From: Streptomyces puniciscabiei
GTDB lineage: Bacteria > Actinomycetota > Actinomycetes > Streptomycetales > Streptomycetaceae
Reading direction: 5' to 3'
Length of the DNA stretch: 64,000 bases
NCBI RefSeq assembly: GCF_006715785.1
Contig: NZ_VFNX01000001.1
Span: 1,054,001-1,118,000 of the forward strand
The position numbers were made by a program, and so were the translations under genes. The notes below the pieces were generated by a model. It ran no database searches. It saw nothing but the letters and a program-made list of their open reading frames with translations, and was not told where the DNA came from. Numbering within the stretch: position 1 is the first letter of the stretch; each line of letters begins with the position of its first letter. Below are positions 12,720 to 24,680 of this stretch, piece after piece.

Positions 12720-13886
12720 TCAGCCGGCGGCCGGCACCGCGACCGGCGGCGTCGGCCCCACATACCGCGCGACCGGACGGATGATCTTCGAGTCGGCCGC
12801 CTGTTCCAGGATGTTGGCGCTCCAGCCCACCACCCGCGCCGCGGCGAAGGTGGGGGTGAACATCTCCCGGGGCAGTCCGCAGAGTTCCATGACCACGCCG
12901 GCGTAGAACTCCACGTTGGTGTGGAGTTCACGGCCGGGCTTCAGCTCGGCGAGGATCGCCTCGACGCGGCGCTCGACCTCCACCGCGAAGTCGACGCGCG
13001 GACCGCCGAAGCCCTGGGCGATCTCCCGCAGCATCCGGGAACGGGGGTCCTCCGTGCGGTAGACGGCGTGTCCGAAGCCCATGATCCGGTCGCCGGCGAG
13101 CACCCGCTCGCGGATCCAGGGGTCGATCCGGTCCGGGGTGCCGATGGCCTCCAGGGTGTCCAGGGCCCGGCTGGGCGCGCCGCCGTGCAACGGCCCGGAC
13201 AGGGCACCCACGGCTCCGGTCAGGCATGCGGCCACGTCGGCGCCGGTGGAGGCGATGACGCGGGCGGTGAAGGTTGATGCATTGAACCCATGATCAATGG
13301 TTGAGATCAGATACTGCTCGACCGCACGCGCCTGGCGCGGCTCGGGTTCCTCGCCGGTGAGCATGTACAGGTAGTTGGCCGCGTAGGGGAGGTCCTCCCG
13401 CGGCTCGACCGGGGCAAGTCCCTGACCGAGCCGGTACAGCGCGGTGAGCAGCGTGGGTACGGCCGCGCAGACGGCCAGGGTGTCGGCGCGACGCCGGTCG
13501 GCGTCGATGTCGTACACCGGTCGCAGCCCGCGCGCCGAGCCCAGCAGGGACAGGGCCGTGCGCAGTCCGGACAGCGGGCCGGAGAGGCGGCTCGCCGCGG
13601 CGATCACGGGCAGCGCCGCGCGGACCTCCTCGGGGAGCCGCCGCAGTGCCGCGGTTTCGGCGGCGAAGGCGGCGCCGCGCTGCGCGTCCGGGAGCGTGCC
13701 GTGGACCAGCAGGTGCCAGACGTCCTCGAAGCCGCGGGTCCGCGCCAGTTCCACGGCCGAGTACTGGCGGTAGTGGTAGAAGCCCTCGCGTCCCCTCACG
13801 TCGCCGATCTCGGTCTCGGCGACGACGACGCCGGCGAGACCGCGCGGTGCGTCGATGAGCGGGGTTGCGGTCCTGTTGATGGCCAT
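12720..13886 (-). CDS. citrate synthase-like protein
   Basis: This 388-residue member of the citrate/2-methylcitrate synthase family would condense acetyl-CoA or propionyl-CoA with oxaloacetate. The conserved histidine segments are present (STIDHGFNAST; SGPLHGGAPS; MGFGHAVYRTEDPR). The segment that usually carries the catalytic aspartate, NVDFY, reads NVEFYAGVV here, with Glu at that position. It is divergent from a second citrate-synthase-like gene fused to a DNA-binding domain, separated by 104 bases containing a perfect palindrome. It is not obviously the main housekeeping citrate synthase; the substrate cannot be told from sequence alone. Confidence 0.85.
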   Translation of the reverse strand: MAINRTATPLIDAPRGLAGVVVAETEIGDVRGREGFYHYRQYSAVELARTRGFEDVWHLLVHGTLPDAQRGAAFAAETAALRRLPEEVRAALPVIAAASRLSGPLSGLRTALSLLGSARGLRPVYDIDADRRRADTLAVCAAVPTLLTALYRLGQGLAPVEPREDLPYAANYLYMLTGEEPEPRQARAVEQYLISTIDHGFNASTFTARVIASTGADVAACLTGAVGALSGPLHGGAPSRALDTLEAIGTPDRIDPWIRERVLAGDRIMGFGHAVYRTEDPRSRMLREIAQGFGGPRVDFAVEVERRVEAILAELKPGRELHTNVEFYAGVVMELCGLPREMFTPTFAAARVVGWSANILEQAADSKIIRPVARYVGPTPPVAVPAAG

Positions 13887-13990: not shown

Positions 13991-15256
13991 GTGACCTCCA
14001 TGCGCGATCACGAATCCGCTCCCGGCCGTGCCGGGCGCAGGCTGACCACCAGGGAGACCGCCGAACTGCTCGGCGTGAAGCCGGAGACGGTGTACGCGTA
14101 CGTGAGCCGCGGCCTGCTCAGCAGCAGGCGCGAGCCCGGCGGCCGTGCCAGCACCTTCGAGGCCAAGGAGGTCGAGGCCCTGGCCCGGCGCCACCGCCGC
14201 GAGGCGGCCACCACGCCGGGCTCCGGCGCGGACCTGTCCGTCCGGACCCGCATCACGCTGATCGAGCAGGACCGGTACTACTTCCGCGGCGTGGACGCCG
14301 TCGAGCTGGCGCTGCGGCACTCCTACGAGGAGGTCGCGGAGTGGCTGTGGACGGCCCGGCTCACCCCGGGCGTCACCTTCTCCGCGCCCGGCCCCACCGT
14401 CGAGGTCGCACGCCGCGCGGTGAACGCGCTGTCCGAGCACGCCTCCCCCACCGACCGGCTGCGCGTGGCGGCCGTCGCCGCGGCGGCCGAGGACCCGCTG
14501 CGCTTCGACCTGTCCGAGGACGCCGTGCTGAACACCGCGCGGATCCTGATCCCCACGCTCGTCGCCGCGCTGCCGCCGGTCCGCCACGACCACAAGGACG
14601 ACGGTCCGCTCGCCCACCGGCTCTGGGGCCGGCTGACCGGCCGTCCCGCCGACGAGGCGTCCCTGCGCGTCCTGGACACCGCGCTCGCGCTGCTCGCCGA
14701 CCACGATCTGGCCGCCTCCACGCTCGCGGTCCGGGTCGCCGCCTCGGCCCGTGCGCATGCCTACGCGGCCGTCTCGGCCGGGCTCGGCGTCCTGGAGGGC
14801 CCACTGCACGGCGCCGCGAGCGGTGACGCCCACCGCATGCTGCTCGACGTGCTCGACCAGGGCACGGCGGTCCCGGTGATCGCAGGTGAACTGCGTGCAG
14901 GCCGCCGGGTCCCGGGGCTCGGCCACCGGCTGTACACCGGCGAGGACCCGCGCGCGAGCGTGCTGTTCGGCCTGCTGGAGCAGGTACCGCGCGCGGAGTC
15001 CGCCCTGCTCGCCGCCCGGGACATCGTCGCCACCACCGCCCGGCACACCCCGCTGCACGCCAACGTCGACCTGGCCCTGGCGGTGTTCACCGCGTCCAGC
15101 GGCATGCCCGCCACGGCCGGCGAGACGATCTTCGCCGTCGCGCGGACGGCGGGCTGGATCGCACACGCCCTGGAGGAGTACGGCGAGCGCCCGCTGCGCA
15201 TGCGCCCGGTGGGCCACTACGTCGGTCCGCGGCCTCCGCAGCCCCTGCCGGAGTAG
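13991..15256 (+). CDS. citrate synthase-like protein with N-terminal HTH domain
   Basis: This 421-residue protein has an excisionase/MerR-like helix-turn-helix at the N-terminus (residues about 18-65: TTRETAELLGVKPETVYAYV, then SRGLLSSRREPGGRASTFEA) joined to a citrate-synthase domain (about 80-410). The enzyme motifs look complete: LADHDLAAST, EGPLHGAASGD, GLGHRLYTGEDPR and HANVDLALAVF with the catalytic aspartate. The GTG at 13991 has GAGG eight bases upstream and is preferred to ATG 14000. It could be a metabolite-sensing regulator of the divergent citrate synthase gene, an enzyme, or both; similar fusions occur in other Streptomyces. The domain assignments are firm, the dual role is inferred. 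Confidence 0.82.
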   Translation: MTSMRDHESAPGRAGRRLTTRETAELLGVKPETVYAYVSRGLLSSRREPGGRASTFEAKEVEALARRHRREAATTPGSGADLSVRTRITLIEQDRYYFRGVDAVELALRHSYEEVAEWLWTARLTPGVTFSAPGPTVEVARRAVNALSEHASPTDRLRVAAVAAAAEDPLRFDLSEDAVLNTARILIPTLVAALPPVRHDHKDDGPLAHRLWGRLTGRPADEASLRVLDTALALLADHDLAASTLAVRVAASARAHAYAAVSAGLGVLEGPLHGAASGDAHRMLLDVLDQGTAVPVIAGELRAGRRVPGLGHRLYTGEDPRASVLFGLLEQVPRAESALLAARDIVATTARHTPLHANVDLALAVFTASSGMPATAGETIFAVARTAGWIAHALEEYGERPLRMRPVGHYVGPRPPQPLPE

Positions 15257-16393: not shown

Positions 16394-18073
16394 ATGAGCC
16401 CCACTCCCCCCGCACGCCGTCTGCGCCTCGGTCTGCCGCGGCGGGTGTTCTCGCAGGTGCTGCTGATGCAGGTGGCGATCGCCGCGGGGGTCGCGGTGCT
16501 CGCGACCGGGCTGTTCCTGGCACCGCTGAGCAAGCAGCTGGACCAGGAGGCGGAACGGCGCGCGCTGGCCATCGCGCAGACGACGGCCCAGGACCCGCAG
16601 ATCGCCGAGGGCGTGCTGACCACTCCGCCGACCCAGAACGGTCCGGTGCAGGAGGAGGCCGAGCGGATCCGGCGGGCCACGCACGCGGAGTACATCGTGG
16701 TGATGGACCGGCGGGGAATGCGCTGGTCGCACACCACCCTCTCGGAGATCGGCGAGCACGTCTCCACCGACCCCAAACCGGCCCTGACCGGTCATGAGGT
16801 CATGGAGATCGACAACGGCACCCTGGGCCGCTCCGCCCGCGGAAAGGTGCCCCTGTACGACACCCACCACCGCATCATCGGGGCGGTCTCGGTCGGTATC
16901 GCCTACGACAGCGTGCGGGCGCGGCTGATCAGCGCGATCCCGGGCCTGTTCGCATACGCCGGCGGCGCTCTCGCGGTGGGCGCGCTGGCCGCCTGGCTGA
17001 TCTCCCGCCGGGTCCAGCGGCAGACCCGGGACCTGGCCTTCTCCGACATCTCGGCGCTGCTCGCGGAGCGTGAGGCGATGCTGCACGGCATCCGCGAGGG
17101 TGTGGTCGCCCTCGACCGCGGCGGCCGTGTCCGCCTGCTCAACGACGAGGCGCGGCGGCTGCTGGGCATCGGTGACGAGGCCGTCGGGCAGACCCCCGAC
17201 GAGGCGCTCGGCGCGGGCCGTACGACGGACGTCCTGGCCGGCCGGGTGACGGGCACCGATCTGCTCACCGTGCGCGGCCAGCGGGTGCTGGTCGCCAACC
17301 GCATGCCCACCGACGACGGCGGCGCCGTGGCCACCCTGCGCGACCGCACCGAACTGGAGCGGCTGGGGCGTGAACTCGACTCCACGCGCGGGCTGATCGA
17401 CGCCCTGCGCGCCCAGGACCACGAGCACGCCAACCGCATGCACACCGTGCTCGGACTGCTGGAGCTGGAGATGTACGACGACGCCGTGGAGTTCGTCGGC
17501 GAGGTGGTCGGCGACCACCGGGTCACCGCCGAGCAGGTCACCGAGAAGATCCAGGATCCCCTGCTCGCGGCGCTCCTGGTCGGCAAGGCGACCGTGGCGG
17601 CCGAGCGGGGCGTCGCGCTGTGGGTGTCGGAGCGCACCCGGCTGCCCGACCGGCTGATCGATCCGCGGGGTCTGGTCACGGTCGTGGGCAACCTGGTGGA
17701 CAACGCCCTCGACGCGGTCGCCGGCACACTCCACGCGCGCGTGGAGGTCGAGTTGCGCACCGAGGGTCGTACGGTCGTCCTCAAGGTGTGCGACACGGGC
17801 CCCGGGATCCCTGCGGACCAGCGGGAGCTGGTCTTCACCGACGGCTGGTCCACCAAGAAGCCGCCCGCGCACGGCAAACGAGGCCTCGGGCTCTCGCTGG
17901 TGCGCCGGCTCGCCGAACGGCAGGGCGGGAGCGCGACGGTCGGCGAGGCGGACGGTGGCGGCGCGGAGTTCACCGTGGTCCTGCCGGAGGCGCTGACCGA
18001 GCCGGAGCTGGAACCCGCGGTGCTCGGGGAGTCGTCCGAGCCCGCTGCCGTCGCCGAGGAGGAGACGCGATGA
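16394..18073 (+). CDS. CitA/DcuS-family sensor histidine kinase
   Basis: This 559-residue membrane kinase has a first transmembrane helix at about residues 21-42, an extracytoplasmic PDC/PAS-type sensor (about 45-175) typical of citrate and C4-dicarboxylate sensors, a second helix at about 180-202, a cytoplasmic PAS domain (about 220-320), then the phospho-acceptor region (LRAQDHEHANRMHTV, probable acceptor His343) and an HATPase domain (NLVDNALDA, DTGPGIP, GLGLSLV). The stop overlaps the next start as ATGA, so kinase and regulator are translationally coupled. It probably senses a di- or tricarboxylate outside the cell; the citrate-synthase-like genes just upstream fit that theme loosely. Confidence 0.9.
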   Translation: MSPTPPARRLRLGLPRRVFSQVLLMQVAIAAGVAVLATGLFLAPLSKQLDQEAERRALAIAQTTAQDPQIAEGVLTTPPTQNGPVQEEAERIRRATHAEYIVVMDRRGMRWSHTTLSEIGEHVSTDPKPALTGHEVMEIDNGTLGRSARGKVPLYDTHHRIIGAVSVGIAYDSVRARLISAIPGLFAYAGGALAVGALAAWLISRRVQRQTRDLAFSDISALLAEREAMLHGIREGVVALDRGGRVRLLNDEARRLLGIGDEAVGQTPDEALGAGRTTDVLAGRVTGTDLLTVRGQRVLVANRMPTDDGGAVATLRDRTELERLGRELDSTRGLIDALRAQDHEHANRMHTVLGLLELEMYDDAVEFVGEVVGDHRVTAEQVTEKIQDPLLAALLVGKATVAAERGVALWVSERTRLPDRLIDPRGLVTVVGNLVDNALDAVAGTLHARVEVELRTEGRTVVLKVCDTGPGIPADQRELVFTDGWSTKKPPAHGKRGLGLSLVRRLAERQGGSATVGEADGGGAEFTVVLPEALTEPELEPAVLGESSEPAAVAEEETR

Positions 18074-18750
18074 TCGAGGTCCTGGTCGTAGACGACGACA
18101 CCCGCGTCGCCCGGGTCAACGCCGCGTACGTGGAGAAGGTGCCGGGATTCCATGTCGCCGGCGAGGCACACAGCGCCGCGGAGGCGCTCCGGCAGGTGGA
18201 GAGGCTGCCGCGGCTGGACCTCGTCCTCATGGACCACTACCTGCCCGACGACACCGGTCTCGCGGTCGTCCGGGAGATGCGCCGGCGCGGCCACCAGGCG
18301 GACGTGATCATGGTGACGGCGGCGCGGGACGTGTCGACCGTCCAGGCCGCGATGCGGCAGGGGGCGCTGCAGTACCTGGTGAAACCGTTCGCCTTCGCCG
18401 GTCTGCGCGCCAAGCTGGAGGCGTACGCGCAGTTGCGGCGCACCCTGGACGGCGGCGGCGAGGCCGAACAGGCGGAGGTGGACCGCATCTTCGGCGCCCT
18501 GTCCGCTCCCTCGGAGCCGGAGCTGCCCAAGGGGCACTCCCCGACGACCGCCGAGCTGGTGCGCCAGGCGCTGATGAACGCCGAAGGGCCGCTGTCCGCC
18601 CAGGAGATCGCCGAGCGCACCGGGGTCAGCCGGCAGACGGCCCAGCGGTATCTGAAGCTCCTGGAGCGCACCGGCCGGGCCCGGCTGACCCTCAGGTACG
18701 GCGACGCGGGCCGCCCGGAACACCGTTACGGGTGGGCGACCCGCGGCTGA
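18070..18750 (+). CDS. CitB/DpiA-family response regulator
   Basis: This 226-residue regulator has a receiver domain (acidic pocket VVDDDTR, phospho-acceptor Asp in LVLMDHYLPD, switch Thr in MVTAA, Lys in YLVKPF) and a C-terminal winged-helix domain of CitB type (SAQEIAERTGVSRQTAQRYL). The ATG at 18070 overlaps the kinase stop (ATGA). It is the cognate partner of the upstream kinase. A paralogue lies at 21730-22422, on the far side of the ABC importer genes, with nearly the same motif order. Confidence 0.9.
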   Translation: MIEVLVVDDDTRVARVNAAYVEKVPGFHVAGEAHSAAEALRQVERLPRLDLVLMDHYLPDDTGLAVVREMRRRGHQADVIMVTAARDVSTVQAAMRQGALQYLVKPFAFAGLRAKLEAYAQLRRTLDGGGEAEQAEVDRIFGALSAPSEPELPKGHSPTTAELVRQALMNAEGPLSAQEIAERTGVSRQTAQRYLKLLERTGRARLTLRYGDAGRPEHRYGWATRG

Positions 18751-18760
18751 GCGGACCTGT

Positions 18761-19819
18761 CTACTTGGCAGCGTCGACGAACTCGGTCGTGTACGTCCTG
18801 CTCAAGTCGACCTTGGCGTTCTTGATGTTGGGGTTGAACGCCTTGAGGACCTTCTCAACGGTCTCGGGGCCGCCCTGGGGCATCACGCCGTCGTCGGTGA
18901 ACATCGGCAGGGTGCTCTTGATGGCCTGCGCGTAGAGCGCCTTGTTGCCCTGGGAGTAGTCGGCGGGCATCTTGGCGGCGATCTCGTCGGCGCTGTGCGT
19001 GGACATCCACTTGAGTGTCTTGACGAATGCGTTGACCAACTTCTGCACGGTGTCCTTGTGCCCGTTCACCCAGTCCGTCTGCATGTACAGACTTGACGAC
19101 GGGTACGGCCCTCCGAGCGCCTTCTGCGAACCCTCGGGGGTGCGCATGTCGAGGAGGACCTTCCCGGCCTTCTTGTCGAGGATCGTGGCGACGGTCGGGT
19201 CCGTCGTCATACCGGCGTCGATCGAGCCCTGCTGCAACGCGGCGATGAAGGTCGGGCCCGCGCCCACGGCGACCGGGGTGACATCGCTGACCTTCAGACC
19301 GTTCTTGACCGCCAGGTACTTGGTGAGGAAGTCGGTCGAGGAACCGAGACCGGTGATACCGAGCTTCTTGCCCTTGAAGTCCTTCGGTGCCGTGATGTCC
19401 TTCGCCTGCTCGGCGGAGACGACCTCCACCTCGCCGGGCGCGTGCGAGAACTGCACGACGGACTCCACCGACTTGCCCTTCGTCTGCAGGTCGAGAGTGT
19501 GGTCGTAGAAGCCGACGGCGCCCTGGACCTGGCCGGAGACGAGCGCTGTCTCGGCCTGGACACCGGCGGGCTCACTGAGGAGTTCCACGTCGAGGCCCTC
19601 GGAGTCGAAGTAGCCGAGCCGCTGGGTCAGCATCGCCGGCAGATAGATGACCTTGTCCAGGCCACCGACCATGATCTTGACCTTCGTACCCTGGCCGTCG
19701 CCCTTGCTGCCGGCGTCGGCGGAGGTGCTGCTCGCCGCGTCATTGGCGCAGGCAGTGAGCGAGGAGAGGGCGAGCAGGCCGGAGGCGGCGAGGGAGACGT
19801 ATCTGGCGGTCTTGCGCAT
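18761..19819 (-). CDS. ABC importer lipoprotein, SsuA/NMT1 type
   Basis: This 352-residue extracellular solute-binding lipoprotein has a basic start, hydrophobic core and lipobox LTAC (Cys about 24), then a Ser/Asp/Gly-rich tether and a type II periplasmic-binding fold of the nitrate/sulfonate/thiamine-precursor family (GGLDKVIYLPAML, YFDSEGLDVELL, GITGLGSSTDFLTKYLA). It is the third gene of the leftward ATPase-permease-binding protein set, 86 bases after the permease. Its stop lies ten bases from the convergent CitB-type regulator. The ligand is unknown: the family handles alkanesulfonates, nitrate, taurine, pyrimidine precursors and aromatic acids. Confidence 0.88.
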   Translation of the reverse strand: MRKTARYVSLAASGLLALSSLTACANDAASSTSADAGSKGDGQGTKVKIMVGGLDKVIYLPAMLTQRLGYFDSEGLDVELLSEPAGVQAETALVSGQVQGAVGFYDHTLDLQTKGKSVESVVQFSHAPGEVEVVSAEQAKDITAPKDFKGKKLGITGLGSSTDFLTKYLAVKNGLKVSDVTPVAVGAGPTFIAALQQGSIDAGMTTDPTVATILDKKAGKVLLDMRTPEGSQKALGGPYPSSSLYMQTDWVNGHKDTVQKLVNAFVKTLKWMSTHSADEIAAKMPADYSQGNKALYAQAIKSTLPMFTDDGVMPQGGPETVEKVLKAFNPNIKNAKVDLSRTYTTEFVDAAK

Positions 19820-19905
19820 GGCGGTTCACGTCCTTGGGAGAGGGCTGTACGGGGCAGGCGGGGACTTGGAGCGCCGGGCCTCGGGGCGGCGCTCGGTGGG
19901 CGGGC

Positions 19906-20766
19906 TCAGTCGGAGTGCGCCGGCTTCCACCGGAAGATGCGGCGCTCGGCGAAGGTCAGCAGGCCCTCGGCGGCGAGGGCGACGACGGCGAGGATGACCA
20001 TCGCGGCGTAGACACCGGCGGCGTTGAAGGTGCCCTGGGACGCGGCGACGAGTAGGCCGATGCCCTTGGTGGCACCGATGTACTCGCCGACGATGGCGCC
20101 GATGAGGGCGAAGCCGAAGCTGACGTGGAGGCTGGTGAAGATCCAGGAGGTGGCCGACGGGATGACCACCTGAAGCGTCACCCGGCGATTGCTCGCGCCG
20201 AGGATCCGGGCGTTGGCGACCAGATTGCGGTCGACTTCGCGAGCGCCCTGGAAGGCGTTGAAGAACACCGGGAAGAACACCAGCACCACGGCCGACGCGA
20301 CCTTGGAGGCGGGGCCCAGGCCGAACCAGATCAGAAAGACCGGGGCCAGCACGATCCTGGGGATGGAGTTGAGCACCTTGACGTACGGACCGAGGACGTC
20401 GGCGAGGAAGGCGATCCGCCCCAGAGCGATACCGAAGATCACACCGGCGACGACACCGATGACCCAGCCGAGCAGCGCTTCCTGCAGCGTGGCCCAGATC
20501 TGCTCGCCCAGCGAGCCCTGTGCCGTTCCGTGCATCACCCAGGTGCGGATCTGGTCCCAGATCCGCGAGGGCATCGAGAAGTTGAACGGGTCGATGATCT
20601 TGGCCCGGGACAGCCCTTCCCACAGGCCGAGCACGGCTACCAGGAGGAGCACCCGCGCAGCGGAGACGACCACCTTGCGCCTGCGGGCGGCCTGAGCGCG
20701 CGACTGGGCGCGCCCCGGGACCTTGGCCGTGTCGACGACCGGCGTGCTGATGACCTCAGGCGACAT
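19906..20766 (-). CDS. ABC importer permease, SsuC/TauC type
   Basis: This 286-residue inner-membrane permease has about six hydrophobic helices and the BPD_transp_1 coupling region with the EAA-like motif (EVDRNLVANARILGASNRR). It forms the channel of the importer whose ATPase is encoded just upstream. I take ATG 20766, which has GAGAGGGG eight bases upstream; GTG 20775 is possible but too close to that site. The start lies inside the ATPase gene, an 11-base overlap, so the two are coupled. Confidence 0.9.
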   Translation of the reverse strand: MSPEVISTPVVDTAKVPGRAQSRAQAARRRKVVVSAARVLLLVAVLGLWEGLSRAKIIDPFNFSMPSRIWDQIRTWVMHGTAQGSLGEQIWATLQEALLGWVIGVVAGVIFGIALGRIAFLADVLGPYVKVLNSIPRIVLAPVFLIWFGLGPASKVASAVVLVFFPVFFNAFQGAREVDRNLVANARILGASNRRVTLQVVIPSATSWIFTSLHVSFGFALIGAIVGEYIGATKGIGLLVAASQGTFNAAGVYAAMVILAVVALAAEGLLTFAERRIFRWKPAHSD

Positions 20767-21571
20767 GAGCGGCACCCCTCTCGCGGGTGATGCGGACCTC
20801 TTCGCCGAGGGACTCCCAGATCTCGCGGTAGATCTCGATGAACCGCGGCTCGAGGCGTACCGACTCGACCTTGCGCGGCCGCGGCAGATCGATGTCGAAG
20901 ACCTGCTTCACGGTCGCGGGGCCCGCGGTCATCACGACGACCTTGTCGGCGAGCGCGATGGACTCCTCCAGGTCATGGGTGACGAAGACGACCGAGGCGC
21001 CCGTGCCCTCCCACAGCTCCAGCAGCTCGTCCGACATCAGCGCGCGGGTCTGCACGTCCAGGGCCGAGAACGGCTCGTCCATCAGCAGGATCTCGGGGTC
21101 GTTGACGAAGGTGGCGGCGAGGGCGACGCGCTTGCGCTGACCGCCGGAGAGCTGGTGCGGGTAGCGGTCCTCGAAGGCGGCGAGGCCGACGCGGGCCAGC
21201 CACTCCCGGGCCTTCTCCCTGGCCTCGGCCTTCGGCACGCCCCGGAAGCGCGGGCCGGCCATGACGTTGGACAGGACCGTGCGCCACGGGAAGGTGGCGT
21301 CCTGCTGGAAGACGAAGCCGACCTTGTCTCCGACACCGCCGACCGGCTCGCCGGCCACCAGCACCTCACCCTCGGTGGGCTCCTCCAGGCCGCTGACCAG
21401 CGTCAGCGTGGTGGACTTTCCGCAGCCGGTCGGTCCTACGACGGCCACGAACTCGCCCCGCTCGACGGTGAGGTCCAGGCCGCGCACGGCCGTGTGCAGT
21501 CCCCCTGACGGGGTTCTGAAGGTCTTGCTCGCGCCCCGCAGCTCGATGGCGGGGCTGGTGTGTGCGCTCAT
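20756..21571 (-). CDS. ABC importer ATPase, SsuB/TauB type
   Basis: This 271-residue ATP-binding subunit has Walker A GPTGCGKST, the Q-loop FQQDATFPWRT, signature LSGGQRKRVALA, Walker B ILLMDEPFSALD and the switch His in VTHDLEES, all intact. It energises nitrate/sulfonate-type import. The ATG at 21571 (MSAHTSPAIEL) is preferred; the 24 codons upstream are not protein-like and cross the palindromic operator region. It is divergent from a lone CitB-type regulator gene with 158 bases between. Confidence 0.9.
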   Translation of the reverse strand: MSAHTSPAIELRGASKTFRTPSGGLHTAVRGLDLTVERGEFVAVVGPTGCGKSTTLTLVSGLEEPTEGEVLVAGEPVGGVGDKVGFVFQQDATFPWRTVLSNVMAGPRFRGVPKAEAREKAREWLARVGLAAFEDRYPHQLSGGQRKRVALAATFVNDPEILLMDEPFSALDVQTRALMSDELLELWEGTGASVVFVTHDLEESIALADKVVVMTAGPATVKQVFDIDLPRPRKVESVRLEPRFIEIYREIWESLGEEVRITRERGAAHVA

Positions 21572-21611
21572 GGCCCGGGACGGTAGGTGTGGCCCCGGCC
21601 ACCGCAGGAGT

Positions 21612-21669
21612 CTTGTGAGCACAAGCCGTTCTTTTGCTCGCAAGAGCCTGTTGTGCTCTTTTTGCTCGC
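21612..21669. promoter_or_regulatory. tandem palindromes in a divergent promoter
   Basis: Between the importer ATPase and the divergent regulator are CTTGTGAGCACAAG (21612-21625, perfect 6-bp arms) and CTTTTGCTCGCAAGAG (21631-21646, one mismatch in 7-bp arms), with centres exactly 20 bases apart. TTGTGCTC (21651-21658) is the inverted copy of GAGCACAA in the first site, and TTTTGCTCGC occurs twice (21632-21641, 21660-21669). The array probably forms two or three binding sites on the same DNA face for the adjacent regulator. Confidence 0.65.
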
Positions 21670-21729
21670 GCTACAACTGCGGAGCCGAAACACGGGCTTA
21701 ACGCTCGTCGGCCTTGAAGGAGAGGCCTG

Positions 21730-22422
21730 ATGATTGACGTCCTGGTCGTGGACGACGACTTCCGCGTCGCTGAGATAAACGCCAAGTACGTGGGAAAGGT
21801 TCCCGGCTTCCGGGTGACCGCCCGCGCGCACAGCGCCGCCCAGGCACTGGCCGCCGTCGAACGCGGCACCATCGACCTGGTCCTGCTCGACCACTACCTG
21901 CCGGACCAGACGGGTCTCGATCTCGTGCACCGCATGCGGGAGCAGGGTCACGGCACGGATGTCATCATGATCACCGCGGCAAGCGACGTGACGACCGTGC
22001 AGCAGGCGATGCGCCTGGGCGCCCTGCACTACCTGGTCAAACCGTTCACCTTCGCCGCCCTGCGGGCCCGCCTCGACTCCTATGCCGCGCTGCGTCGCAC
22101 CGTGGACCGGGTCGGCGGCCACGGCCTGACCGGTCAGGAGCAGGTCGACCGGATCTTCGGGGCGCTGCGGGCGTCTCCCGCACCGTCCGCGCCCGGCCTG
22201 CCGAGCGGCCACTCGGAGCCGACGACCGATCTGATCTGCGGCGTCCTGCACCGCGCGGACCAGCCGTTGTCCGCCCACGAGGTGGCCGCGCGGACGGGCC
22301 TGAGCCGCTCCACGGCCCAGCGCTATCTCCGCCACCTCGAACAGGCCGGCCGGCTCCGGCTCTCCCTGAAGTACGGCGACACCGGCCGGCCTGAGCACCG
22401 CTACGCCTGGGTGGCGCCCTGA
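21730..22422 (+). CDS. lone CitB-family response regulator, paralogue of 18070-18750
   Basis: This 230-residue regulator has a complete receiver (VVDDDFR, LVLLDHYLPDQTG, MITAAS, YLVKPF) and the same C-terminal helix-turn-helix as the regulator at 18070 (SAHEVAARTGLSRSTAQRYL; GDTGRPEHRYAW). The two proteins align from end to end, so they are recent paralogues. No kinase gene adjoins it: the divergent neighbours are the importer ATPase, permease and binding protein, and the convergent neighbour is a symporter. It may be phosphorylated by the CitA-type kinase at 16394 or by a distant kinase. GAAGGAGAGG stands seven bases before the ATG. Confidence 0.9.
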   Translation: MIDVLVVDDDFRVAEINAKYVGKVPGFRVTARAHSAAQALAAVERGTIDLVLLDHYLPDQTGLDLVHRMREQGHGTDVIMITAASDVTTVQQAMRLGALHYLVKPFTFAALRARLDSYAALRRTVDRVGGHGLTGQEQVDRIFGALRASPAPSAPGLPSGHSEPTTDLICGVLHRADQPLSAHEVAARTGLSRSTAQRYLRHLEQAGRLRLSLKYGDTGRPEHRYAWVAP

Positions 22423-22473: not shown

Positions 22474-24066
22474 CTACGCGGCGCCGGCGCCGGTCAGCGA
22501 CCGGACCTCCGTCTCGGCGTACTTGGCCTCGTCGGCGACCTCGTCGGAGGTGATCGTGCCGAGCCAGCCGGCGAGGAAGCCGAGCGGGATGGAGACGATG
22601 CCGGGGTTCTGCAGCGGGAAGTACTGGAAGTCGACGTCCGGGAACAGTGAGGACGGGCTGCCGGAGACCACCGGGGAGAGCAGCACCAGTGCGAGCGCCG
22701 GGATCAGCCCGCCGTACACGGCCCACACCGCGCCGCGCGTGGTGAAGCCGCGCCAGAACAGCGAGTACAGCAGCACCGGAAGATTCGCCGACGCGGCGAC
22801 GGCGAAGGCGAGGCCGACGAGGAAGGCGACGTTGAGGTCACGGGCCAGCAGCCCGAGCGCGATCGCCATGACACCGATGGCGACCGCCGCCCACCGCGCC
22901 ACGGCCACCTCGCTGCGTGCCGTGCCGCGCGAGCGCCGCAGCGAGGCGTACAGGTCGTGCGCCACCGACGCCGACGAGGCGAGCGTGATGCCGGCCACCA
23001 CGGCGAGGATCGTGGCGAAGGCGACGGCGGCTACGACCGCGAACAGAACCGTTCCGCCGGTGGAGCCCGCGCCGCCGCCCAGGTCGAGGGCGAGCAGCGG
23101 CACCGCCGTGTTCCCGGCCGCGTTCGAACCGCGCACCGCATCCGTCCCCACCACCGCGGCCGCACCGAAGCCGAGGACGATCGTCATCAGGTAGAAGCCG
23201 CCGATCAGCCCGATGGACCAGACCGCGGAACGGCGGGCGGCCCGCGCGGTGGGCACGGTGTAGAAGCGGGACAGGATGTGCGGCAGTCCCCCCGTGCCCA
23301 GCACGAGGGCGAGCCCCAGGCTGATGAAGTCCAGGCGGGCGGTCCATGTGCCGCCGTACTTCAGGCCAGGCGCCAGGAAGGCCCTTCCGTGACCGCTGCG
23401 GTCCGCGGCCGTGAGCAGCAGGCGGTCGACGTCGCCGTGGAAGCGGAGCAGGACGAGCACCGTCAGCGCGATCGTGCCGCTGAGCAGCAGCACCGCCTTC
23501 ACGATCTGGATCCAGGTGGTGGCCCGCATCCCTCCCAACGACACATAGATCACCATGAGCGCGCCGACCCCGATGACCGCCCAGGCCTGCGCAGCCCCGC
23601 TCGTCCGCCCCAGCAGCAGCGCCACCAGACTGCCCGCGCCGACCATTTGCGCCACCAGATACAGGACGGACACGGTGACCGAGGAAGTTCCCGCGGCGAT
23701 CCGCACCGGTCGCTCGCTCATCCGCGCGGCCACCACGTCGGCCAGGGTGAACCGCCCGCAGTTGCGCACGAGTTCGGCCACCAGGAACAGCACCACCAGC
23801 CAGGCCACCAGGAAGCCCACGACGTACAGCATCCCGTCGTACCCGTACAGCGCGATGAGCCCGGTGACGCCGAGGAAGGAGGCGGCCGACATGTAGTCAC
23901 CGGCGATGGCAAAACCATTCTCCATGGGAGAGAACAGCCGCCCTCCGGCATAGAACTCCTCCGCCGAACCCTGCCGTCGACGGCTCACCCACGTCGTGAT
24001 CCCGAGGGTGACGGCCACGAAACCGCTGAACAGCAGCAGTGCCAGCCTTTGATGATCAGCGGTCAC
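22474..24066 (-). CDS. sodium:solute symporter, acetate (ActP/MctC) type
   Basis: This 530-residue SSS-family transporter has about 13 transmembrane segments. It shows the family features near the N-terminus (GSAEEFYAGGRLFSPMENGFAIAGDYMSAASFLG) that mark the cation/acetate and monocarboxylate symporters, and the GTGGLPHIL motif. It would take up acetate, propionate or a related acid with Na+. The GTG start overlaps the stop of the DUF485 gene (GTGA); DUF485 proteins regularly accompany ActP symporters. The upstream two-component genes on the same strand may control it. The substrate is inferred from family and context. Confidence 0.9.
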   Translation of the reverse strand: MTADHQRLALLLFSGFVAVTLGITTWVSRRRQGSAEEFYAGGRLFSPMENGFAIAGDYMSAASFLGVTGLIALYGYDGMLYVVGFLVAWLVVLFLVAELVRNCGRFTLADVVAARMSERPVRIAAGTSSVTVSVLYLVAQMVGAGSLVALLLGRTSGAAQAWAVIGVGALMVIYVSLGGMRATTWIQIVKAVLLLSGTIALTVLVLLRFHGDVDRLLLTAADRSGHGRAFLAPGLKYGGTWTARLDFISLGLALVLGTGGLPHILSRFYTVPTARAARRSAVWSIGLIGGFYLMTIVLGFGAAAVVGTDAVRGSNAAGNTAVPLLALDLGGGAGSTGGTVLFAVVAAVAFATILAVVAGITLASSASVAHDLYASLRRSRGTARSEVAVARWAAVAIGVMAIALGLLARDLNVAFLVGLAFAVAASANLPVLLYSLFWRGFTTRGAVWAVYGGLIPALALVLLSPVVSGSPSSLFPDVDFQYFPLQNPGIVSIPLGFLAGWLGTITSDEVADEAKYAETEVRSLTGAGAA

Positions 24067-24611
24067 GAGGCACCTCCCCGCGCTTCGCGGGCCAGTTCCT
24101 GGGTGTCCCAGCGCAGCTCCAGCGCCGCCCGGTCCCGGCGGAGCCGCGCATGCCGGGCGTAGGCCCAGGTCAGCAGGAACGTGGTGAGGAACTGCCCCAG
24201 CCCGGCCACCATGGCCACGTTCACCGCGCCCGTCACGGGCCGGGCCATGAGCCCGGGGGCGGCCGTGGCGGTGACCACGAAGCCCACGTACCAGGCGAGG
24301 AAGGCGGCGACTCCCGGCACGACGAACCTCCGGTATCTGGTGCGTACCTCCTGGAAGGCCGCGCTGCGCTGCACCTCGACGTACACATCGCGAGCGCGAA
24401 CCGTCGCTCCGCTCAGCTCCCCGCGGGCCGACGGCACCACCGGCGCCGGCACACCGGTGCTGTCCAGCTCGCCCCAGCCGCAGGCCAGGGCGTCGTACCA
24501 GGGGTCTTCGTACGGCATGTCGCGGGAGGGCGCGCCGTGGTCCTGCGGGTTCTCGGCCGAACTCTCGGGACCGTCCCCAGCGCCATGGGCACGACCGTTG
24601 CTTGACTGCAT
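24063..24611 (-). CDS. DUF485 membrane protein (YjcH-like)
   Basis: This 182-residue protein has two transmembrane helices (about residues 98-122 and 132-155) characteristic of DUF485, preceded by an unusually long hydrophilic N-terminal region of about 95 residues; typical YjcH proteins are about 100 residues in total. It is the usual partner of the acetate symporter, encoded immediately downstream with a 4-base overlap. A TTG codon two codons upstream could be the start, but I use ATG 24611; neither has a strong ribosome site. Confidence 0.82.
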   Translation of the reverse strand: MQSSNGRAHGAGDGPESSAENPQDHGAPSRDMPYEDPWYDALACGWGELDSTGVPAPVVPSARGELSGATVRARDVYVEVQRSAAFQEVRTRYRRFVVPGVAAFLAWYVGFVVTATAAPGLMARPVTGAVNVAMVAGLGQFLTTFLLTWAYARHARLRRDRAALELRWDTQELAREARGGAS

Positions 24612-24680
24612 GCCCAAGGATGGACAGATCGGGAAGTTCTCTGACTCTTCTTCCTCCGGCTCTTCACCCCATCAGGTGAT

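Follow-up and report, generated by a model that had tools for sequence, protein, structure and literature searches.

Which sensor kinase does a CitB-type response regulator obey when it stands alone beside another, complete CitA/CitB-type pair, and how did it come to stand there? The question is raised by a 64,000-nucleotide stretch of the 9.1-Mb Streptomyces puniciscabiei genome (positions 1054001-1118000 of contig C1), to which we refer as the window. Here a CitA/DcuS-type sensor kinase (HK1; 16394-18073, plus strand) and its paired CitB-type regulator (RRp; 18070-18750, plus strand, its start overlapping the HK1 stop) are followed by an ATP-binding cassette (ABC) importer on the minus strand and, divergent from the importer, by a second CitB-type regulator without a kinase (RRl; 21730-22422, plus strand). 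An initial annotation made from the letters of the window had described this arrangement, and the genes lie where it placed them. Comparison with relatives favors, with a probability of roughly 0.6, the reading that the importer and RRl together make up a CitAB-type two-component/importer unit whose own kinase was lost next to HK1, a paralogous citrate-type sensor that would now serve RRl.

The importer unit with and without a kinase

We surveyed 121 genomes of the genus, the present one included, taken evenly from a larger group, scoring the importer as present when its binding protein matched at ≥70% identity and a kinase at E ≤ 1e-150. The importer was found in 34 of these genomes, 12 times with a kinase of its own and 22 times without, so that the cognate kinase of a CitAB-type unit is lacking from the window and from 22 of the 34 (our genome among them). 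All 22 kinase-less units, each an importer with a divergent RRl, lie at the HK1 locus; 21 stand directly behind RRp or, in G003, behind HK1, and in G023, which lacks RRp, 3.8 kb with other frames intervenes between HK1 and the unit behind it. In the other 12 units a kinase (HK2) is divergent from the importer. Eleven of these were seen in fetched neighborhoods, with the regulator (RR2) behind the kinase, and that of G028, on a short contig, was assigned by coordinates. Eight of the 11 stretches show no genes of the core locus, while three (G018, G060, and G035) stand at the present locus beside a SucFer gene, where HK1 and RRp are missing; further neighbors are mctC in G018 and LuxR/HK3 genes in G060, and the kinases of these three units branch apart from HK1 and from the main HK2 clade. 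Where HK1 and a kinase-bearing unit occur apart in one genome, as in eight cases (G028, G045, G055, G064, G075, G092, G096, and G103), the unit retains its kinase. Put most simply, the unit would lack a kinase where HK1 is its neighbor. Two contigs of G022 carry an HK2-type kinase and an RR2-type regulator between them, but that genome gave no importer match.

Core loci that have no unit carry mctC directly after RRp (L083, L086, L098, L099, L101, L102, L103, L105, L106, L111, and L112), and the simplest reading is that an insertion placed the unit in between these two genes. Judged by this comparison, the unit elsewhere consists of an importer divergent from HK2-RR2, and its present counterpart, between RRp and mctC, no longer has HK2. 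The unit has also been lost again: remnants of RRl and the binding protein lie between RRp and mctC in G080 (L118), an RRl remnant is left in G009 (L100), and in G101 (L080) a deletion took part of HK1, RRp, the importer, and the start of RRl, leaving RRl truncated. A kinase of the unit's own at another site, an objection foreseen in the initial annotation, was looked for: each of the 25 sampled genomes with an intact RRl has one kinase at the threshold, the HK1 of the locus, and HK2-type kinases in other genomes score 3.8e-185 or better and would thus have been visible.

A second set comprises 80 named relatives of RRl, kept from at least 248; it overlaps with the genus sample, and several contigs are identical. 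Their titles read Streptomyces in 79 cases and ‘Actinobacteria bacterium OV320’ in one. An order-wide search of 293 genomes with the ATPase gave a match in 106, in seven of nine genera. In another genus of the family, G361 has an 89%-identical ATPase (C66:179915-180724).

RRl and its paralogs

RRl and RRp are 64% identical over 227 columns. The genome holds four whole-length CitB-type regulators (100, 66, 50, and 47% identical to RRl), the next match being 43% and confined to the receiver. It also has three whole-length CitA-type kinases, besides four matches restricted to the N-terminal sensor part. Since each whole-length kinase directly precedes one of the three other regulators, RRl is left without one. 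The genome also contains a second complete unit of kinase, regulator, and divergent importer, ~50% identical (L107; C3:205000-222000).

Fourteen alignment columns separate 36 paired regulators from 12 of the kinase-bearing type (11 importer-linked and that of G022). In these columns 24 lone regulators carry the importer-linked (RR2) state in 13, another residue in one, and the RRp state in none. One of the 14 columns lies in the helix-turn-helix, S194 being present in RRl at 80/80 named loci vs Q in RRp at 73/74. A first regulator tree, which included very long rows, left deep forks open. After removal of L107, L108, L080, and 14 window-type loci (28 rows), the remaining 46 of 77 rows were split by one branch (support 100/97) into 23 importer-linked-type and 23 paired regulators, one of the latter (L095) coming from a pair at another locus.

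The firmer conclusion from these alignments is that RRl is not derived from within the RRp branch. Nor did it, in all probability, arise by local copying of RRp: the same importer stands in other Streptomyces divergent from a complete kinase-regulator pair and RRl has the RR2 state in 13 of the 14 columns. The duplication that the initial annotation called clear holds as an old paralogy; the 23 paired regulators of the reduced tree make up a branch from which RRl is excluded. RRl itself is intact and under constraint, and the response regulators that it resembles are those linked to the importer.

A candidate operator common to both forms of the unit

The region between the ATPase and RRl genes (21572-21729) spans 158 bp, and 157-166 bp in the 80 named loci. 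The palindrome that had been reported there, CTTGTGAGCACAAG at 21612-21625, is real, with 12 of 14 letters paired, and is partly conserved in relatives. More telling, and absent from the earlier description, are a direct repeat, TTGTGCTC-T-TTTTGCTC (21651-21667, plus strand), our proposed RRl operator, and a third copy of its half-site, TTTTGCTCG (21632-21640, plus strand). The region was aligned across 22 loci. Nearly all RRl-type and kinase-bearing importer promoters have the same 17-bp direct repeat, for which TTnTGCTCnTTnTGCTC is common to both; it has three exact copies in the genome, two of them at importer promoters. Searched as TTNTGCTCNTTNTGCTC, the exact matches are the window gap, the promoter of the C3 importer unit, and a site within a coding frame; the last (C1:6119733) lies in a frame with an EQNEQNE repeat and was set aside as chance rather than taken as a regulon site. 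At up to one mismatch the pattern had four matches in the genome and, reversed as a control, one. A one-mismatch operator lies ~240 bp downstream of a citrate synthase gene (G000 C1:4322892).

Among the 80 named loci the gap holds an exact operator in 63 and a one-mismatch operator in 17; outside the gap, the region upstream of HK1 included, these loci contain a single site within one mismatch. In the 12 kinase-bearing units considered here (the 11 and the C3 unit) the operator was exact or one mismatch off in ten, two off in one, and not found in one. From these matches we take the operator to be that of the kinase-bearing unit. The C3 unit has it exactly although its regulator is only 50% identical to RRl, and cross-regulation between the window and C3 importers is possible. 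The locus thus shows a regulator divergent from its transporter with a conserved site, the candidate operator, in common, as in CitAB-type systems, and the regulon seems to be confined to these two, importer and regulator. Neither a sigma-70 promoter nor a terminator was found when the promoter region was scanned.

HK1 as the candidate sensor of RRl

HK1 is present at the locus in all 79 readable named loci (one of the 80 runs off its contig) and in the same locus in 25/25 sampled genomes with an intact RRl. RRp is less constant. It is absent from L177, L178, L187, and L202 and degenerate in L204 (5/79 readable named loci), and absent also from G003 and G023 (2/25). These seven losses require at least six changes on a quick HK1 tree, and in the loci concerned the HK1, importer, and RRl frames are open as far as checked. 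The three-part unit proposed in the initial annotation thus recurs in relatives without being universal, the importer too being lost in 3/25.

The phosphorylation residues of RRl (D8, D9, D54, T82, and K104) are intact in 80/80 relatives. RRl and RRp are equally constrained: the median ratio of nonsynonymous to synonymous differences per site (pN/pS) is 0.123 for RRl, from 20 relatives, and 0.121 for RRp, from 19, with every fourth locus taken. On the kinase side, every HK1 and HK2 row has the phosphoacceptor core RAQ[DG]HEHAN, and the sensor residues R-x-S-H and A-R-x-K occur in 41/41 HK1-type rows and in 12 HK2 or docked kinases. Because HK1 and HK2 have the same phosphoacceptor core and carboxylate-site residues, exchanging one kinase for the other would call for hardly any alteration of the signal or the interface.

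We propose that an importer-regulator unit docked beside the paralogous citrate-type sensor HK1, whereupon the unit's own kinase would have become redundant and been lost, the closely related sensor probably taking over its job. HK1 would sense extracellular citrate or a related carboxylate and phosphorylate RRl, together with RRp where present; phospho-RRl would bind the direct repeat and switch on the importer and RRl itself. One sensor would likely drive two branches, and RRp, given its different helix-turn-helix residue, probably reads other DNA than RRl. That one kinase feeds two regulators, as first suggested for this locus, is the best-supported reading, with another likely origin: a unit that lost its own kinase, not the duplication of a neighbor. 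More tentatively, and with a little more doubt than belief, we read the sensor takeover as staged, in the order docking, kinase loss, and wiring through a phosphotransfer interface that was already nearly invariant, with the sensor swapping regulators in ~6 lineages in which RRl outlived RRp.

Alternative explanations

A number of observations weigh against this reading, and we give them here together with the rival explanations. As to origin, a single branch (98/99) contains the RRl of this type, so that the kinase may have been lost only once, and three importer-linked regulators in the reduced tree (those of G018, G060, and G035) lie nearer the paired group. A tree joining RRl with RRp costs 2.7 log units and is not rejected by the approximately unbiased (AU) test (p-AU 0.394), and several of the states common to RRl and RR2 may be ancestral. 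Both points, with the common neighborhood and the 64% identity, would suit an origin of RRl by tandem copying of RRp, the copy then displacing the regulator that the unit had at first. Such a copy is nevertheless very improbable: the paired regulators make up one branch without RRl, none of the 14 diagnostic positions is in the RRp state, and RRl comes with the importer and operator of the kinase-bearing unit. Local tandem duplication was accordingly rejected as the likeliest origin on columns, tree, and operator, while the AU test still permits it. Harder still to credit is that the unit is in decay, a relic that has lost its kinase and is losing the rest. The remnants in G080 and G009 and the G101 deletion would fit it, but the matched parts of the importer genes and RRl have no stop or frame break in the named loci, and median pN/pS is 0.12 for RRl, 0.08 for the ATPase, and 0.27 for the binding protein.

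As to partnership, HK1 also stands without an adjacent RRp in genomes that lack RRl (G044, G047, G073, G105, G045 at L104, and G088 at L096), so RRp loss by itself does not establish RRl as the partner of HK1, and as proof of HK1 feeding RRl it is weakened. HK1-type kinases at L113, L114, L115, L116, L104, and L096, all in RRl-less genomes, have no CitB-type regulator alongside. Co-occurrence is likewise weak as proof, the kinase being present in 25/25 RRl genomes vs 108/121 overall (chance 0.04 even with relatedness ignored). Of 75 lone regulators, a count that includes the contig-edge locus L170 and leaves aside the five RRp-less named loci, 73 have K at position 19; the RRp of the window and the RR2 of L082 have A there. 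K19 is a possible specificity change that might insulate RRl from HK1. RRl could also act without phosphorylation by a kinase: it might bind constitutively, use a small phosphodonor, or be controlled by the importer or a ligand. RRl persists without the importer in three of the 25 genomes (G079, G087, and G091), in G079 also without the operator. In G051 a related lone CitB-type regulator (L121:7281-7946) has a one-mismatch operator upstream, and neither an HK1/HK2-type kinase at 1e-150 nor the importer was found in that genome. BldM of S. coelicolor, according to the available part of a review, needs no phosphorylation (PMC9739842). We still regard kinase-free action as unlikely, as the five phosphorylation residues are kept in 80/80 and HK1 accompanies RRl in 79/79 loci; for the control of RRl by ligand or transporter that the initial annotation had entertained, nothing was found in favor. 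RRl might otherwise be driven by another kinase of the genome, such as the CitA-type kinase of the C3 unit or that of the pair at C1:1.60 Mb. Both are present, and with its exact operator the C3 unit has a regulator that might act on the window promoter too. This seems rather improbable, however: the two kinases are 47 and 41% identical to HK1 and deviate from its sensor site and RAQ[DG]HEHAN core, no regulator at the C3 level of identity (50-53%) was found in G003 or G023, which have RRl, and neither kinase accounts for the coincidence of kinase loss with position at the HK1 locus.

Gene identities at the locus

The importer consists of an SsuA/NMT1-family substrate-binding protein (18761-19819; best solved chain 3qsl), a permease (19906-20775), and an ATPase (20756-21571), all on the minus strand and assigned with Pfam and NCBIfam. 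The ATPase start is the ATG at 21571, which aligns in relatives; the open reading frame list had a TTG at 21643. Scores fall below the curated cut-offs of sulfonate, taurine, and nitrate models (SsuA_fam 87.8/163.5, TauC 106.2/342, and taurine ATPase 205.7/357 bits), and the importer is SsuABC-type by family resemblance only. A carboxylate substrate can only be guessed at, from the analogy with Corynebacterium glutamicum CitAB.

HK1 has an extracytoplasmic sCache_3_2 domain, a PAS domain, an SPOB_a-type phosphoacceptor domain, and an HATPase domain (Pfam). Its best NCBIfam model is the DcuS/MalK subfamily (365.8 bits, under the cut-off of 520), and the closest solved chains to its sensor are 8bgb (listed as ‘Histidine kinase’), 8biy, and DcuS 3by8, followed by the CitA chains 2v9a and 2j80. 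The R-x-S-H and A-R-x-K residues align with 8bgb, which we take to be a CitA, and the carboxylate-binding positions R, H, R, and K are presumed to be those of Klebsiella CitA. RRp was identified from the open reading frame list and Pfam. RRl combines a receiver with a C-terminal IclR/HTH-like domain (Pfam) and matches the DcuR model over residues 1-226 of 230 (151.5 bits, under the equivalog cut-off of 262).

To the right of RRl, on the minus strand, follow mctC and a DUF485 gene (22474-24617). mctC exceeds the NCBIfam cut-off for a monocarboxylate transporter (744.6 vs 670 bits) and is whole or partial in 79/80 named loci. Two divergent citrate-synthase-like genes (13991-15256 and 12732-13778), one with an N-terminal MerR/HTH-type domain, adjoin HK1, as such a pair does in many relatives; with this recurrence a citrate-related signal would fit.

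Comparison with known systems

In the available parts of its description, CitAB of C. glutamicum is encoded divergently from citH, activates citH and tctCBA, and responds to citrate (PMC3353115). The window resembles it in having CitA/CitB-type regulation divergent from a transporter gene. It differs in that CitAB is one kinase with one regulator, given there as the sole CitB-family regulator of that strain, and in that the CitAB transporters are of the CitMHS and TTT types, whereas that of the window is an SsuA/NMT1-type ABC importer (PMC3353115). In HpaS-VemR-HrpG of Xanthomonas campestris, too, a kinase with a regulator of its own takes on an orphan regulator in a branched pathway; VemR, however, is a single-domain regulator that binds FliM, and the accessible text has no linked importer and no visible lost kinase (PMC7036368). 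S. coelicolor offers other departures from one-to-one two-component sets, AbrC1/C2/C3 and the RR-HK-RR triad SCO0870-0872, but these are described, in the part of the review available, as two kinases converging on one NarL-type regulator or as containing CheY-/RssB-type regulators (PMC9739842). The table in that part lists two IclR-type regulators, SCO1136 and SCO5434, paired and unnamed, and no orphan of the IclR/CitB type; a search of open-licence PubMed Central for these and their kinases' tags returned only PMC9739842. The present analysis supplies a candidate operator and sensor for the window's importer, and does the same for the CitB/IclR-type regulators that are nameless in this table (PMC9739842). 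No paper on the HK1-RRp/importer/RRl arrangement was found in open-licence PubMed Central. The type of circuit and the co-option of orphan regulators were known before, and a kinase-less importer-regulator unit beside a paralogous sensor is a variant of them.

It is generally held that specificity residues insulate paralogous two-component pathways from one another. To our knowledge, intermediate states of a regulator changing its kinase have rarely been seen in nature. Living Streptomyces contain, side by side, units at other sites that have a kinase of their own, units with their own kinase at the locus without HK1, kinase-less units beside HK1, and loci in which HK1's own regulator has been lost. 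Because these states coexist, the proposed rewiring would be directly testable.

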